Of a DNA stretch of 54,309 nucleotides, positions 17,518-26,413 are shown piece by piece. Both the position numbers and the translations under genes were made by a program. Location of the stretch: assembly GCA_012518315.1 (NCBI GenBank), contig JAAYSL010000189.1:1-54309 (forward strand). The letters run 5' to 3'. Origin of the DNA: Bacillota bacterium. Its GTDB lineage: Bacteria; Bacillota; Limnochordia; DTU087. How positions within the stretch are numbered: position 1 is the stretch's first letter; each line of letters opens with the position of its first letter. The notes beneath the pieces were generated by a model, which saw only the letters and a program-made list of their open reading frames with translations, was not told the DNA's origin and ran no database searches.

Positions 17518-17612
17518 ACATGGCTCCTTTTTGTTTTGGTAAGATGACCTATGTTTGTGGCTCATATTTCAAACAGAAGTCACATACTGTGGTGAACAGG
17601 GGAGGAGATGCC

Positions 17613-18563
17613 ATGCTAAATGAATGGTGGAGAGCGAAAAGGGCGCAGCCAGCAAACCAAATAGTCTTAACTTGGCGGGAGACTAGAGAGTTTGTCGTCT
17701 GGAGTTTGCTGATTGCGGTTTTCAGTATGATGCTTGTCCCATATGCAGCCACCGCGGCCGGTGGGAGCCACGTGCTTTTTAGCATGGAAGATCGGGCCGG
17801 AGACGATTATGGTCATGGTAGTCTGACCTATCCCTTGCATAAAGTATTTGAACCGGGATTGTTTGATCTAAGGCGGGTTCATATTTGGCATGATGATGAC
17901 AACTTGTACTTCGATGTCTCCTTTGGCCGGGTGACCAACCCCTGGAATGCTCCCGAAGGCTTTTTCCATCAGCTAATCGATATCTATATTGATGCAGAGC
18001 CTGGAGGACATACAACGCCGGTGGCTCCAGGACCCGGGGTGCAGTTTTCCCCTGATGCCGGTTGGGAATACCGCCTCCGAATCCAACCTTGGGGTCATTC
18101 CCAATGGCTAGATGGCCGCTTGATTCCAGGGAAGGTCTATCCCATCAAGGCCCTGGTGTTGCCGGATGGTAAGACCATTCGGGCAGAGGTTCCTCTAGCC
18201 ACGGCTGGATCGCCCCACAAGGGGTGGCGCTACTATGTACTGGTAGGAGGATTTGATACCTTTGGGCCTGATCATTACCGCTCAGTTAAGGAGACTGCAA
18301 CCCAGTGGTGTTTTGGTGGTGGCTTCTCAGGGGGGCCGCAGGTTATTGATCTTCTAGACGGGGGTGCAGGCAAGAGAAACCAGAAAGCACAACTAGCAAC
18401 CAAAGGTGCTGATGATGAACTGCCTGTGCTCTTGCCGGTGGGTCCCGGAATATCTTTGCCCTTTACTTGGGGCCACCTTTTGGCCAGCTTGGTTGTGCTG
18501 GGCGTTTTGGGTGGTATCTTTGTAGCTTTATCCCGCCAGGTGCCACCGGGTCAGGCCGGGTAA
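17613..18563 (+). CDS. membrane-anchored glucodextranase C-terminal/DOMON-like carbohydrate-binding protein
   Basis: FSMEDRAGDDYGHGSLTYPLHKVFEPGLFDLRRVHIWHDDDNLYFDVSFG...IDIYIDAEPGG; N-terminal and C-terminal TM segments; start placed at ATG 17613 behind GGGGAGGAG. Confidence 0.7.
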   Translation: MLNEWWRAKRAQPANQIVLTWRETREFVVWSLLIAVFSMMLVPYAATAAGGSHVLFSMEDRAGDDYGHGSLTYPLHKVFEPGLFDLRRVHIWHDDDNLYFDVSFGRVTNPWNAPEGFFHQLIDIYIDAEPGGHTTPVAPGPGVQFSPDAGWEYRLRIQPWGHSQWLDGRLIPGKVYPIKALVLPDGKTIRAEVPLATAGSPHKGWRYYVLVGGFDTFGPDHYRSVKETATQWCFGGGFSGGPQVIDLLDGGAGKRNQKAQLATKGADDELPVLLPVGPGISLPFTWGHLLASLVVLGVLGGIFVALSRQVPPGQAG

Positions 18564-18606
18564 TTCCACACCACCTAGAAGAAGGGTCTAGAGGGGATTT
18601 GCGGCT

Positions 18607-18632
18607 AATCGGAAGTGTACTTACTTCCGGTT
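18607..18632 (+). other. intergenic hairpin
   Basis: AATCGGAAGT-gtactt-ACTTCCGGTT, 10 bp with one wobble. Confidence 0.5.
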
Positions 18633-18682
18633 TGGACGTTCTAATTTGTGGACTTTTGATCTGTGGACAGGGGGGGGATACC

Positions 18683-19705
18683 ATGGAGTTACCTAGTTCA
18701 GCGAAGGTAGACAAGCCCTCTTGTATGCGGCAAGTAGGGGGATTTTGTATAGCCGACTCCAGCTCAGTTTGGCAAGAGGTAGTAGATAGTCTCGCCATAA
18801 GTGTCTTGGCGGCAGAAGGAAGTAGCTGGCTTCGGCGAGCTAAGGCGGCTTTCCTTTCTGTGTTGCGTCATCCCCTGTGGCGAAGGCTGATCCCTAAGAA
18901 AGAGGGAGCGCCTATCGCCATGGGCAGCCAGATAGATGTGGCATTTCAGGGAAGATATGGCAAATGGATTGCTTTCGATCTCAAGCAGGATCTTGTCATT
19001 AGAAGAATCGCAACCAAAGAACTGTATGATCGGGAGGTTTGGATCCGAAGCCTACCTGTAGTAGAAACCCTAAGTCCGGATATCATGTCATGGGATGACG
19101 AGAGCTTTACATATTGTGAGCAATATGTGCGGGGACGTCCTGTCCAATTGCATGATCTCGATGAAGGGCTGACGGTATTGCGTAATCTGTGGCCAAGCTT
19201 AGGAGCAGTCTATGAAGTAAAGACTAGTAAAGCCCCACTCAAGTTACCTTCCCCTAGGGAGAATGAAACACTTTTTCGTGTTGTCTACCGAGCGGGCCTT
19301 GCAGAAGCCTTCGAGAAAGTGCAAGGACGGGAGGTGAAGCAAGGCCTTGTGCATGGAGACCTTAAGCACCCTAATGTGATCGTTAGGGGAGATGAGGTAT
19401 ATGTTATAGATTGGGGGGAGCAGTTTTTCCTGGCACCACCCCTTTTTGATCTATTGTATTACCTGTATTGGCATACCCGTAGCTTTGCACCAGAAATAGT
19501 GGTCAACAGAGCCTTGTGTAACCCTCAATGGATCGAGGACGGCCTACCAGGTAGTTTGGAGCCAGCAGCGGTGAAGGCTAGTCTTTGCGTGTTTGCCGCG
19601 GAGATGGTGTCCCGGACCAAAGAAGAAAGAAGGCAAGAGTATCATCTAAAAAAGCTAGTCAGTTTCCTTGAGGTAGTCGCCACGCAGCTGGAGGCCATAT
19701 CCTAG
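18683..19705 (+). CDS. APH-fold (aminoglycoside phosphotransferase-like) kinase
   Basis: Catalytic-loop-like VHGDLKHPNVIV and metal-binding-like YVIDWGEQFF; start placed at ATG 18683. Confidence 0.7.
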   Translation: MELPSSAKVDKPSCMRQVGGFCIADSSSVWQEVVDSLAISVLAAEGSSWLRRAKAAFLSVLRHPLWRRLIPKKEGAPIAMGSQIDVAFQGRYGKWIAFDLKQDLVIRRIATKELYDREVWIRSLPVVETLSPDIMSWDDESFTYCEQYVRGRPVQLHDLDEGLTVLRNLWPSLGAVYEVKTSKAPLKLPSPRENETLFRVVYRAGLAEAFEKVQGREVKQGLVHGDLKHPNVIVRGDEVYVIDWGEQFFLAPPLFDLLYYLYWHTRSFAPEIVVNRALCNPQWIEDGLPGSLEPAAVKASLCVFAAEMVSRTKEERRQEYHLKKLVSFLEVVATQLEAIS

Positions 19706-19712
19706 AGGCCAA

Positions 19713-19824
19713 GTGTAGTTTTGTGCATAGTGCATAGGGACAGATGCTCCAGGCAAGACTACACATGTCCTTTATTGCCAAGCCAGGTAGTATCTCGAAA
19801 CATACTACCTGTGGTATAGGGACA
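19713..19824 (+). ncRNA. candidate structured leader with two hairpins and competing repeats
   Basis: Hairpin 1: GTGTAGTTTTG (19713-19723)/CAAGACTACAC (19754-19764). Hairpin 2: CAGGTAGTAT (19784-19793)/ATACTACCTG (19802-19811). Direct repeat ATAGGGACA at 19734-19742 and 19816-19824; complementary TGTCCTT at 19766-19772. Confidence 0.5.
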
Positions 19825-19853
19825 AATAGAAACAACTGCTTGGAGGCGGTCTT

Positions 19854-21302
19854 GTGAGGATTCTCATGCTGTCCTGGGAGTATCCCCCTCAGGTGGTGGG
19901 GGGATTGGGTCGGCACGTGGCAGATTTATCAGAGGCATTAGTGAAGCTCGGTGAAGAGGTGCATGTATTGACTCAAGATGCCCCTGGTGCTCCTTTGCTG
20001 GAGAACGTGAACGGGGTGCATGTCCACCGGCTGAAAATGTATGGCCCTGCCGGTCGGGACTTTGTCGAATCGGCCACCCACCTCAATTTGAACATGCTAG
20101 AAGTAGTGCTAGGACTGGTGCGCCAAGGCTATACTTTTGACCTTATTCACAGTCACGACTGGTTGGCGGCCTATGCCGGTAAGGCTCTAAAACATGGTCT
20201 TCTGCGTCCGCTGGTTGCCACCATCCATGCAACAGAGTTTGGACGCAACCATGGACTGCATAATGATTTGCAGCGGCAGATCAGCAATTTGGAATGGTGG
20301 CTTACCTATGAAGCTTGGAAAGTGATCTGCTGCAGTCAGTATATGAAGGGCGAGATCCAGTACATCTTCCAAGTGCCTACCGATAAGATACGGATGATAC
20401 CAAATGCTGTTAAGGCATCAGATTTCGCCATCCGAGACGCTTTTGATCGCTTGATATTTCGCAGGCGCTACGCGGCAGACAATGAACGAATCATCTACTA
20501 TGTTGGCCGGTTGGTTCATGAAAAGGGTGTTGACACCCTAATTGAAGCTGTTCCCCGGGTTTTGGCCAGGTTCCCCCAGGCCAAATTCGTTATTGCAGGC
20601 AAAGGACCGGCGGAGTTTGCTCTAAGGGAACGGGCCCACCGGCTTGGAGTTAGCCAGAGGATATATTTTGCCGGGTTTGTCGATGACCTAACCCGTAACC
20701 GCTTATATGCCTGTAGTGATGTGGCGGTGGTTCCCAGCCTTTATGAGCCCTTCGGCATTGTGGCATTGGAGGCTATGGCCGCGGGAGTACCGGTTGTCGT
20801 CTCTGATACCGGTGGTCTCTCAGAGGTGGTTCGCCATGCCGAAAATGGCCTTAGGGCCTATCCGGGTAATCCCGAGTCACTAGCTGACAATATCCTTGCC
20901 TATCTGAAGTCTCCTCGGTATGCTGGATATATTGAGGAACAGGCGGCTAGGGAAGTGCGGGAGAAATACAACTGGTCTCTAGTTGCCCGCAAGACTTTGG
21001 AAGTCTATGAAGCAGTGCTGGACGAATTTGAAGCGAGTCCCTGGGCAAAGTTGGGCCGGTTTCCTGTCGATGGTATTTTGGCTCAGACTCGACTGACAAC
21101 TCCAGGTGCCCAGACGCGCTATCAAGAAACCGGTTCTGCTGCCTACTTGCAGCGGGATCTGTGGGAAGAAAATCGTCAGTCAGTCGGTAATCGCTATTTA
21201 CACCCCGGAGCGGAGTCCTTGGGAGTTTCGGGAAAAACCAGCCGGAGTCAGGCCGGCCCGGATGAGCACCTAAAGGATGTAAGGGAGGGTAGCTTGTCAT
21301 GA
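19854..21302 (+). CDS. GT4-family glycosyltransferase (glycogen synthase-like)
   Basis: [81 protein letters not shown] start. Confidence 0.92.
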
Positions 21303-23782
21303 AGGCTGTGATTATGGCTGGTGGGCAGGGTAGTCGGCTAAGACCTTTGACTTGTGATCTCCCCAAACCAATGGTGCCGGTGGCCAACCGTCCAATGATG
21401 GAGTATATTGTCGGGTTGCTTTGTCATCATGGTCTTAGGGATATTGCCGTAACCACCTGCTATCTGCCAGAGGAAATTGAGGACTATTTCGGTGATGGGG
21501 CGGCATGGGGTGCTAAGCTGCGATACTTTATCGAGGATCAGCCTCTAGGTACAGCTGGGAGCGTAAAAAACGCGTCTGGCTACCTAGATGAGACCTTCCT
21601 TGTGATCTCAGGTGATTGCTTGACTGATTTTGACCTACACGGGGCTATAGGTTTCCATCGAGAAAAGGGGGCGTTGGCCACTCTAGTTCTGACTCGGGTT
21701 ACCTCACCTTTGGAGTACGGAGTAGTCTTTACCAATCAAGCTGGCGAGATCGAACGCTTTTTAGAGAAGCCTAGCTGGGGTGAAGTCTTCAGTGATACGG
21801 TCAATACTGGCATCTATATTCTAGAACCTGAGGTACTAGCCATGATTCCCCCTGGTGCCAGATTTGATTTTAGCCGTGACCTATTTCCCCAGCTGTTGGA
21901 AAATGAGCAGCCATTATATGGTTATGTTGCCGATGGCTATTGGTCAGATATCGGTAACCTTGAGCAGTACGTCGAGTCCCACCTAGATCTTCTGGCCGGA
22001 AAGGTAAGGGCGGCCCTACCAGGGAGCATGGATGCCAATAATTCCGGGATCTGGATGGGAAAAGGGGTCTGGGTTCATCCAGAGGCGATCCTAGAGCCAC
22101 CGGTGGTTTTAGGCAAGATGTGTCGCGTAGAAAAGGGAGCAGTAATAGGTCCTTATAGCATATTGGGCCCTGGCACAGTTATTGGTGCATCTAGCTCTAT
22201 CCGCCGATCTATCTTATGGAAGAATGTGCATGTAGGGACAGGGGCAGAGATCAGGGGAGCGGTGCTTTGTGATCAGGTGGTGGCTAGAGGCAAAGCCAGG
22301 GTATTTGAAGGTGTGGTTGTCGGTCACCGAAGTACCTTGGGCGCATCTAGCACCATCCGCCCCGGGGTCAAGATTTGGCCTCACAAAGTAGTGGATCGCA
22401 ATTCTATAGTAAATCATGATGTAGTATGGGCTGGTACCTGTTCCCGGGTACTCTTTGGCAACACCGGTATTACTGGCCTGGCAAATCTGGAGATTAGTCC
22501 AGAGTTTGCCACCAGGGTAGGGACGAGTCTTGGGGCATTACAGGAAGCCCGCCAAAGTGTTTTGGTGGCCGCGGATGGTTGGGGTGCATCCCGGATGGTG
22601 AAACGGGCACTTACAGCTGGCATCCTCTCCAGTGGGGCAAATGCGGTGGATATTGGCTCAACCACTCTGCCGGTGGCCCGGTTCACTACGGTGTTGACTG
22701 CCTCTGTTGCCGGTGTCTATGTGCGTCAGGGACGCCAATTGCCCGATCATGTGGAGATTCAGATTCTAGATGGGGCAGGCTTCCCCTTTAGTCGCAGCCA
22801 GGAGCGGGCAATTGAAAACCACTTTTCCAGAGGTGATTTTCGCCGGGTGGAAGGTGGGGAAGTGGGTAAGACCCAATTTGCCGCGGGAGCGAATCAAGCA
22901 TATCTAAAGGCTTTAGGCCAAAAGTATGGCCAGAGCCTACTGGGCAGTCGGCAACTAGCGGTGGTAGTTGGTTATACATCATCGGCCCTAAGAAGTCTCT
23001 TGCCGGCGCTATTAGGTCAGCTTGGGTGCCGGGTGATTGATCTTGATCTAGATAGGAAACCGGGTGCCACACCCAATTCTGTCATGTATCAACGGGGTCT
23101 TTACATAGACAAGTTAGCAGAGGCAGTGGTGGAAAACCGGGGAGCTTTGGGATTGTTGGTAGATGGTAGTGGTGAAACAGCCGTTATTCTTGATGATCAA
23201 GGTAAGGCGGTGCCTGAAAATAGCCATTGGCCCCTAATTACCTGGGCTTTGGCTGTGTCTGGTAAAGATGGAGGTGGGTTCTGGGCAGTCCCTACGACAG
23301 CCTCTAGAACGGTTGATCATCTTGCTACGAAATATGACCGAAAAGTACTGCGCACTCCCAACAACACCCGAGCGGTACTTCAGGCGGTAGGCGGCAAAGC
23401 CAAGGAAGATCACACCTTGCTTCACCCGGCCTTTGATGCCCTTTCTTTTGTGGCGGCCCTGCTTGGGCTCATTGCCCGGGAGCGACAATACCTTTCCAGT
23501 TTGACCATGGCTTTGCCTACTTCAGGTAGACGGCAGGTAGAAGTGCCTTGCACTTGGCAGGCAAAAGGTAGAGTCATGCACTCATTGCTAGAGAGTACAG
23601 TAAATCACCAACGGGATCTTGTCGATGGGATCAAGGTCTTTCATGACGAAGGGTGGGCTTTGGTCTTGCCGGACGGGGAAGACCCACTAATACGGGTTTA
23701 CGCGGAAGCTGGTACAGAGGAAGAAGCTGATGCTTTGACTCAAATCTATATGAGCCAGATCAGTGATATCACGAACATCTAA
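21299..23782 (+). CDS. sugar-1-phosphate nucleotidyltransferase (ManC-like) fused to degenerate phosphomannomutase-like domain
   Basis: [38 protein letters not shown]; hexapeptide repeats; C-terminal alpha-D-phosphohexomutase fold similarity ([16 protein letters not shown]...) without SASHNP. Confidence 0.88.
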
Positions 23783-25401
23783 CATTCTCCCACGGCTTGG
23801 GCCACATTGGCCCTTTTTATCTCGCCTGCATAGATTCGAAAATCCAGCCAGGGAAAGATATTGTGCTCCTCTTCCTGCTCCTTAAGCCACCGAATATCAA
23901 TGCGGTTTTCTGTAATCTGATGATAAAGCTCGATGAAATTGGAGATGTGCTCCCGGGTGCGGCGCTGGGCGTATTCCACCATGGTGCCGGTCTTCATGAT
24001 AAAGGCCCAATCACTAGCTTGTGCCAAGAGCAGTTCCCTGGCGGCTTGGTTTAATGCCCTTTCTAGATGGCCATCGGCGTGCCTGTATCGGTTGGCCAAT
24101 TGCACCATTCTGTCTGCCGCCCTATGTAGGTGCCGATAAATCCAATCATTACTGCCATCTAGCCACACCTCATGATATCCGCCATTTCCCCAGCTTGACT
24201 CAGAGGGCATACTGATCTGGTTTGAAGGGTATTGTTGCAGGTATTCGGTGGGTGTGATCATGGCAAACACCTCTTGATCGTAGGCGGCTTTTCTAAACAA
24301 GTAATCTAGCCATTGGGGTCCTTCGTACCACCAATGACCAAAGAGTTCCGCATCATAGGGAGCGATGATAAGGGGAGGTCGATCCATCCTGGCTGCAAGA
24401 AACTGAGCCTGCAGTTCCCGGTTAAACATGAAATTCCCCGCATGTTCTGCCGCCCGGATCTGGGCGATGCCAGGATCATAGATCTCCTTATGATTGCCCT
24501 TGCCACTGATTCTATAATACTTAATCCCAGTGAATCCTCGGATGCCGGCTATCAGGTATGGCTTGATGTAATCATAATCTAGGTCAAAGCCGATATCCCG
24601 GTAAAAATCCCTATAGAAGAAGTCTCCTGGATATCCTTCGGAAGCGCTCCAGACTTGCTTAGAGGACTCCCAGTCCCTACCAAAGGCTGCCACCATTGCC
24701 GGTGTATAGATGGGTGCGTAGACCGAGTAGCGGGGGCGTGGCTGGGCGTGGATAATGCCATGGGAATCTGTAATCACATAGCGAATCCCGTATGCCCCGA
24801 GGATTTCATCTATGCCGGGGGTGAAGGCACACTCTGGCAGCCAAAAACCGCTGGGTTCTTTGGCAAAGAAGTGCCGATAAGTCTCAACTCCTAGGGCAAT
24901 CTGTGCTTCTACAGCCTTTGGGTTGATGTAAAGAAGCGGCAAATAGCCATGGGTGGCTGCAGAAGCGATAATCTCCAGGGAGCCGGTCTTCTCCAATGCA
25001 ATAAAGCGATCCAGTAAGCGATAATGGCAATCCTCAAAAGTCTGCCGAGCTCTTTGAAACTGCCGAAGGTACTGAACTGCCATGGTTTGGAGCCCCGGCA
25101 TAAAGCGGGTGCGCTGCACTTCTTTTTCCGCTAGTTCACAAAGCTTCGTAATGTGTCGGTGATACCGTTCCTGTAGGAACCCATCGGCCAGCATCGATGC
25201 CAAGGTCGGTGTGATGGACATAGTCAATCGAAACGGCACATTATCTCTAAGCAGCCCATCCATCACTTCGATGATGGGGATATAAGTCTCTGTTATGGCC
25301 TCCATCAGCCATAGCTCTTCCAGGCACTCCGGTGTTTTTGGGTGGCGCACATAAGGAAGATGAGCATGGAGGACAATCGATACATAGCCGACCTTAGACA
25401 A
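23779..25401 (-). CDS. GH57-family enzyme, 1,4-alpha-glucan branching enzyme-like
   Basis: [15 protein letters not shown]; nucleophile-region [16 protein letters not shown]; acid/base-region [24 protein letters not shown]. Confidence 0.9.
23799..23818 (+). terminator. intrinsic terminator for the nucleotidyltransferase transcript, inside the GH57 gene 3' end
   Basis: GGGCC-acatt-GGCCC followed by TTTTT. Confidence 0.65.
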
Positions 25402-25414
25402 GTGTATGCTCCTT

Positions 25415-26386
25415 TCAGGATTGCCTTTCTGAACTTCTTGTTTGTCTAGTGACTAGAAGTGCAATAGACCGTTCCTTTTGATCCGGGGAAATCGCTTTCA
25501 CCGGCAACGAAATGATGCCATCAGGTAAGGCAAACCGCAAGGTGAAGTTCCCGCCTGGATCTACGTTAATGGTCTCATCACCTATAGTTACCACACTACC
25601 AGGAGTAGTTTGGCCGTAGAGAATCACCTCTGTTTGCACCTCTAGAAAGAAGGGGGCTTCATATGTAACTTGACCCGGGGCTTCTTCTATGGGCCTTGCA
25701 GCTTGAAAACTCGCACCCATAGGGCTAAAGATGCCGGGGCTGGTGGGATAGCCCCCCAAGGCAGCAAGATGGCTCTCTCGGCGTCTTTGCCATTCCATGG
25801 GGCTATGGCCCGGTTCTGGGTGCTGGGAAAGCCAATAGAATTCCTCTACAGTCAGCCATTTTTCGTCGACCAACGGACTCGTGGTTCCCCTGGGTGTGGC
25901 AATGATATTGGATCGGGTGATCTCCCGGAAGACCCCATGGGGTGTACGGATGCCAATACCTACTTGAAAGGAGCCTCCCAGTTTACCGGTATGAATGTGC
26001 CATGCTCGGCTATACGGTTGGACAGTCACATCGAAATGCCCCAAGGGCCTTTTACTACTTGGGTCCAAATCATATACCCGAAGCATGATCTGGCACTGGT
26101 CATCCCTGAGCGTTTGCCGAGCGTGGGCCCAAGCCTTTGGTGTGATCTCCCAATAGGCATAAACCCAAGTTGGATCCCGTGCCATAAGTATAATATAGTC
26201 TTCCCCATACCCACTTGGTAGTTCCCGATGTGATACGGGACATGCAGGCGTGGGCGAGGTCTCATGCATGAGATGATCTGGCCAGATATCACTTAAGGGA
26301 GGACCAATTGTCTCCATGCCTGCTGCAGGTGTTTCGGCAGCGTTTCCTCCTTGAGGAGATCGTCCCTCCATGGCTAGTTCCCTCAA
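25415..26386 (-). CDS. DUF4912 domain-containing protein
   Basis: GEDYIILMARDPTWVYAYWEITPKAWAHARQTL...RVYDL; start placed at TTG 26386 behind GGAGGT (listed ORF begins at 26413). Confidence 0.75.
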   Translation of the reverse strand: MRELAMEGRSPQGGNAAETPAAGMETIGPPLSDIWPDHLMHETSPTPACPVSHRELPSGYGEDYIILMARDPTWVYAYWEITPKAWAHARQTLRDDQCQIMLRVYDLDPSSKRPLGHFDVTVQPYSRAWHIHTGKLGGSFQVGIGIRTPHGVFREITRSNIIATPRGTTSPLVDEKWLTVEEFYWLSQHPEPGHSPMEWQRRRESHLAALGGYPTSPGIFSPMGASFQAARPIEEAPGQVTYEAPFFLEVQTEVILYGQTTPGSVVTIGDETINVDPGGNFTLRFALPDGIISLPVKAISPDQKERSIALLVTRQTRSSERQS

Positions 26387-26413
26387 TGATGGCACCTCCT
26401 GCCCATCCGACAA

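Follow-up and report, generated by a model that had tools for sequence, protein, structure and literature searches.

A conserved module of GT4, nucleotidyltransferase-pseudo-PMM, AmyC-type GH57 and DUF4912 genes in Bacillota, a candidate for a non-canonical glycogen-like pathway

Which of the six neighbouring carbohydrate genes at this Bacillota locus belong together, and what do they make? A first-pass annotation of the window (the whole stretch analysed, 54,309 nucleotides of contig JAAYSL010000189.1) had combined them into one candidate glucan or glycoconjugate system. We compared the gene families, their neighbourhoods and their active-site residues across related genomes and more distant phyla.

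Gene layout and conservation

All six reported reading frames were open, and each matched its named family in a Pfam profile search of the window proteins. The genes for a glucodextranase-C-like protein (GDXC), an APH-fold kinase, a GT4 glycosyltransferase and a nucleotidyltransferase-PMM protein (NTP-PMM) lie on the plus strand, and those for a GH57 enzyme and a DUF4912 protein lie on the minus strand. The family assignments therefore hold, but the genes do not form one run, and the two convergent strands rule out one operon of all six. The 3' ends of NTP-PMM and GH57 overlap by 4 nt (window:23779-23782), and the transcripts could be coupled through this antisense stretch. The convergent arrangement is retained in most Bacillota loci having both genes. 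The flanking genes, which we take from their sequences to be housekeeping genes, are nnr and alr before the cluster and nagA, nagB, yvcK, rapZ, whiA and glycolysis genes after it.

Among 61 relatives, GT4, NTP-PMM, GH57 and DUF4912 remain together in many families. These four genes form a conserved module; chance grouping is excluded because the association recurs in many families and in many phyla. Any of the relatives with DUF4912 also has the GH57 C-terminal domain, and vice versa, apart from G030 and G036, in each of which a contig ends at that place. Across 399 Bacillota genomes, the presence of the two was concordant in 388 (179 with both, 209 with neither, 8 and 3 with a single one; Fisher p 4e-99, phylogeny ignored). 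At 68 of 72 DUF4912 loci the neighbouring gene on the same strand was GH57, with DUF4912 upstream in every such pair but L122; the other four loci include three at which the contig stops. A reverse search from GH57 found DUF4912 directly upstream in 68 of 73 resolvable loci of named genomes (median gap 17 nt); since the sample comprised the 80 loci nearest to the window GH57, this proportion applies to the AmyC type and does not extend to GH57 as a whole. These loci span Omnitrophota, Nitrospirota, Verrucomicrobiota, Elusimicrobiota, deltaproteobacteria, Margulisiibacteriota and one Thermoplasmata MAG. Both profiles also match in the control genome of Thermotoga maritima. Co-occurrence across relatives, proposed in the first-pass annotation as a check, was thus found for the core families and not for the kinase.

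Predicted enzymes of the module

The GH57 gene (23779..25401, minus strand; Glyco_hydro_57 and BE_C domains, 4e-41) is a predicted glycogen branching enzyme gene. Its product scores 516 bits over its full length against T. maritima AmyC (PDB 2b5d) and 287 bits against TK1436. In a comparison with TK1436 and TT1467, the catalytic loop was about 10 residues shorter than that of TK1436 and colinear with AmyC. Glu190 (nucleophile), Asp350 (acid/base) and Cys191 of CSR-3 are invariant among 24 homologues. By these sequence features, we predict a short-loop branching enzyme of the AmyC type. Branching by AmyC has been demonstrated biochemically (8.5% alpha-1,6 bonds; PMC6616209), with low branching rates and hydrolytic activity of up to 30% (PMC6616209, PMC10346327). 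Of the GH57 branching enzymes, about 92% are reported to be loop-less, and these branch slowly in vitro (PMC10346327).

That hydrolysis and slow branching, together with the preference of loop-less GH57 enzymes for alpha-1,4 transfer (PMC6616209, PMC10346327), would also suit a catabolic or turnover module. GH57 and DUF4912 would then degrade or recycle maltodextrin, as an amylase or 4-alpha-glucanotransferase, and GT4 and NTP-PMM would be a separate synthesis step. A second GH57 of TK1436/TT1467-like sequence (N-terminal WPFGEEW) adjoins the DUF4912-GH57 pair, at its opposite side, in eight loci (L043, L097, L098, L109, L112, L117, L124 and L134), where it could be the main branching enzyme. 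Against this stand the alpha-1,6 bonds formed by AmyC and the single BE_C GH57 in most relatives of the class. The GH57 is moreover fused to GT4, the putative synthase, in proteins encoded at five loci (L039, L046, L047, L094 and L113), and at L123 and L130 DUF4912-GH57 sits among GT5 glgA, glgD and phosphorylase genes. We consider the maltodextrin explanation unlikely.

The GT4 gene (19854..21302, plus strand) encodes a candidate alpha-glucan synthase with the Pfam domains Glycos_transf_1 and Glyco_transf_4 (3e-46) and the E-x7-E motif EPFGIVALE. Some genomes have it joined to the branching enzyme in one protein, and in many it is the sole synthase candidate found. Its score against the GlgM-like family glgA_Coryne (TIGR02149) was 162.7 bits, under the curated cut-off of 302.4, which counts against a glycogen-like role.

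NTP-PMM (21299..23782, plus strand) comprises a nucleotidyltransferase domain (NTP_transferase, 7e-54), a left-handed beta-helix and a degenerate PGM_PMM_I region. Its score against the GlgC equivalog TIGR02091 was 112 bits, below the cut-off of 424.9. The nucleotidyltransferase motifs are conserved among 25 homologues. In the PMM part, the catalytic loops TASHNP (serine), DGDADR (metal) and SGTEP (phosphate) are absent from the window protein and from 24 homologues. The label 'pseudo-PMM' of the first-pass annotation is apt: the domain is catalytically degenerate, and it is probably a regulatory or sensor domain.

The best NCBIfam match of the nucleotidyltransferase was a GDP-mannose family (261 bits, below cut-off) and the best PDB match a UDP-glucose enzyme, a disagreement that also weighs against a glycogen-like pathway. 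Similarity to mannose-1-phosphate guanylyltransferases would fit another glycoconjugate, made by GT4 and NTP-PMM from, for example, GDP-mannose, with GH57-DUF4912 nearby through conserved synteny; in the relatives' loci the wider region (nagA, nagB, rapZ, yvcK, whiA and gap) is indeed conserved by descent. This reading is very improbable in view of the GT4-GH57 fusions, the runs of GT4, NTP-PMM and phosphorylase genes outside that synteny, and the presence of GH57 within 10 kb of 75 of 105 NTP-PMM homologues among the matches listed.

Alpha-glucan gene context and the outer genes

In family f7, GT4, NTP-PMM, DUF4912, GH57 and a GT35 phosphorylase follow one another on one strand. Families f13 (L080, L082, L083, L089) and f14 (L081) have a run of GT4, NTP-PMM and phosphorylase without GH57 or DUF4912, and the lack of GH57 in f13 genomes speaks against a glycogen-like module. 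A GH65 gene flanks the f13 copies. A GH15 glucoamylase gene was found nearby in ten loci. Among GH57-bearing relatives, GH15 occurred in 9 of 11 without any phosphorylase and in 1 of 26 with one (p 4e-6; phylogeny ignored). GT5 GlgA and GlgC were both undetected in at least 22 of 37 GH57-bearing relatives; because most of these genomes are drafts, an isolated absence carries little weight, but whole genera and families were concordant.

The absence of canonical glg genes noted earlier is true of the window and false for the genome, where a classical glg operon lies on contig C49 (L071:1-10434). It contains a glgC fragment at the contig end, glgD, a GT5 glgA, a pullulanase-like GH13, glgB and glgP. 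Two alpha-glucan systems therefore coexist in this genome, the four-gene module being the second, and its redundancy calls for an explanation, which counts against the pathway proposed below. A short GT35 phosphorylase gene on contig C190 (L072:1028-2695) is not linked to the cluster in this genome; its product is about 62% identical to the f7 phosphorylase that is operonic with GT4, NTP-PMM, DUF4912 and GH57.

The APH kinase gene (about 18677..19705, plus strand; Pfam APH 7e-9) has intact HGDLK..N and D-W-G motifs. Of 11 family members, 5 carry it, and one further match was partial and distant. In each of the five it lies beside GT4, towards GDXC, and it is absent from relatives keeping the other genes. 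It is a lineage-specific insertion and not a core gene. The first-pass annotation had related the kinase to maltokinases that feed the GlgE pathway, in keeping with the APH fold, and GT4 does score with the GlgM-like glgA_Coryne. The maltokinase family was not matched in Pfam, NCBIfam or PDB searches, and the PDB search gave no match for the kinase at E<0.1. In the assembled part of the genome no GlgE was found among the three GH13 genes, all assigned otherwise (two belong to the glg operon, and the third is a secreted-looking amylase beside an ABC permease), and most carriers of the cluster do not have the kinase. We reject the GlgE-maltokinase reading, which is left with hardly any probability.

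The GDXC gene (17520..18563, plus strand) encodes a predicted extracytoplasmic protein with an N-terminal signal or transmembrane segment and a C-terminal transmembrane segment. It matched Glucodextran_C (PF09985) at 178 bits (2e-52; gathering score 22) and has no catalytic domain, and the hydrophobic segments at both ends are kept in ten proteins; its description as a membrane-tethered protein without a catalytic domain is upheld. In 20 of the 57 genomes having both, GDXC and DUF4912 are no more than 20 kb apart, and chance placement expects about 1.4. It is missing from most loci of the core, so that it is loosely associated with the cluster as an accessory and is not a core gene.

An outward-facing role is hinted at by GDXC alone. 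An alpha-glucan at the surface or linked to lipid, anchored or sensed by this protein, would have parallels in the surface glucan of Aeromonas and in actinobacterial MGLP, where Rv3031 (GH57) is paired with Rv3032 (GT4). The review PMC11046441 describes cytosolic enzymes as making the Aeromonas polymer. The conserved hydrophobic ends and the enrichment near the cluster favour such a product; the scarcity of GDXC at core loci and the core protein ends, which have no signal or membrane segments, oppose it. A transporter or ligase travelling with the core was not seen, and the phosphorylase and GH15 neighbours indicate intracellular storage. A surface polymer, one of the two locations first suggested, has a distinctly low probability.

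DUF4912 and the proposed pathway

The DUF4912 gene (25415..26413, minus strand) is the upstream partner of GH57, and its product matched PF16258 at 90.8 bits (9e-26), above the gathering score of 29.4. The predicted structure (mean pLDDT 78) has two beta-sandwich domains, mostly above 90: an FN3-like one at about 70-175 and a C-terminal Ig-like one at 262-323. Foldseek returned only generic FN3/Ig-like matches (about 0.6-0.7 TM to target for alignments of around 100 residues), and a CBM48-type assignment was dropped on this result. The modelled fold is consistent with a binding module and is not diagnostic of one. Likewise, the conserved aromatics W83, Y87, W88, W138 and W186 agree with glucan binding and do not prove it.

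DUF4912/GH57 co-occurrence, the GT4-GH57 fusions and the adjacency of phosphorylase, GH15, GT5 and GlgD genes strongly support a shared alpha-glucan pathway for the four core genes, a grouping from which the kinase of the original proposal drops out. We consider it probable that the module is a non-canonical glycogen-like (alpha-1,4/alpha-1,6-glucan) pathway, in which DUF4912 is the dedicated partner of the AmyC-type GH57. The nucleotidyltransferase domain would make an NDP-glucose, with the pseudo-PMM domain probably in a regulatory or sensor role, and the retaining GT4 would use this donor to elongate alpha-1,4 chains. The GH57 would branch and trim these chains, with DUF4912 as its putative glucan-binding or activating accessory subunit. 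Mobilisation could fall to the short GT35 phosphorylase (here on contig C190) and, in other lineages, to GH15 glucoamylase; the kinase and the GDXC membrane protein would be lineage accessories. Gene content, conservation, fusion, co-occurrence and active-site residues are observed; the donor, the product and the function of DUF4912 are what the model infers.

The proposed pathway shares the step logic of the classical GlgC-GlgA-GlgB-GlgP route (NDP-glucose, synthase, branching, phosphorylase), but has GT4 in place of GT5, NTP-pseudo-PMM in place of GlgC and GH57 in place of GH13, with DUF4912 in addition. With the Rv3031/Rv3032 pair it has a GT4 and a GH57 in common, a likeness at the level of gene family; methyltransferase or lipid-linked partner genes were not seen at the module. 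Archaeal clusters of GT4 and GH57 (with GH133/GH15) also place GT4 next to GH57 in genomes possibly without a GT3/GT5 synthase, and neither DUF4912 nor NTP-pseudo-PMM is reported for them in the consulted passages of PMC11046441. This 2024 review lists the role of GT4 in glycogen synthesis as unresolved.

GH57 branching enzymes are already known; we found no report of the DUF4912-GH57 link in the literature searched, where DUF4912 is mentioned in just one paper, on an unrelated subject. T. maritima AmyC, which shares catalytic residues and the short catalytic loop with the window enzyme, was studied alone, whereas AmyC-type GH57 here almost always occurs with DUF4912 and often with GT4 and NTP-PMM. 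A bolder proposal, quite possible though short of probable, is that DUF4912 is the obligatory second subunit of loop-less GH57 branching enzymes, paired with them across many phyla; the low rate of AmyC alone would then reflect the missing partner, and GT4, NTP-pseudo-PMM, GH57 and DUF4912 would be a full alternative glycogen pathway where glgC and glgA are absent. DUF4912 gains a testable function, and the conserved partner offers a direct experiment on the slow branching of loop-less GH57. DUF4912 was present and BE_C GH57 absent in six genomes (G109, G238, G274, G384, G413 and G419), and such copies may have another function. A stand-alone second DUF4912 copy lies at L129:7776-8711.
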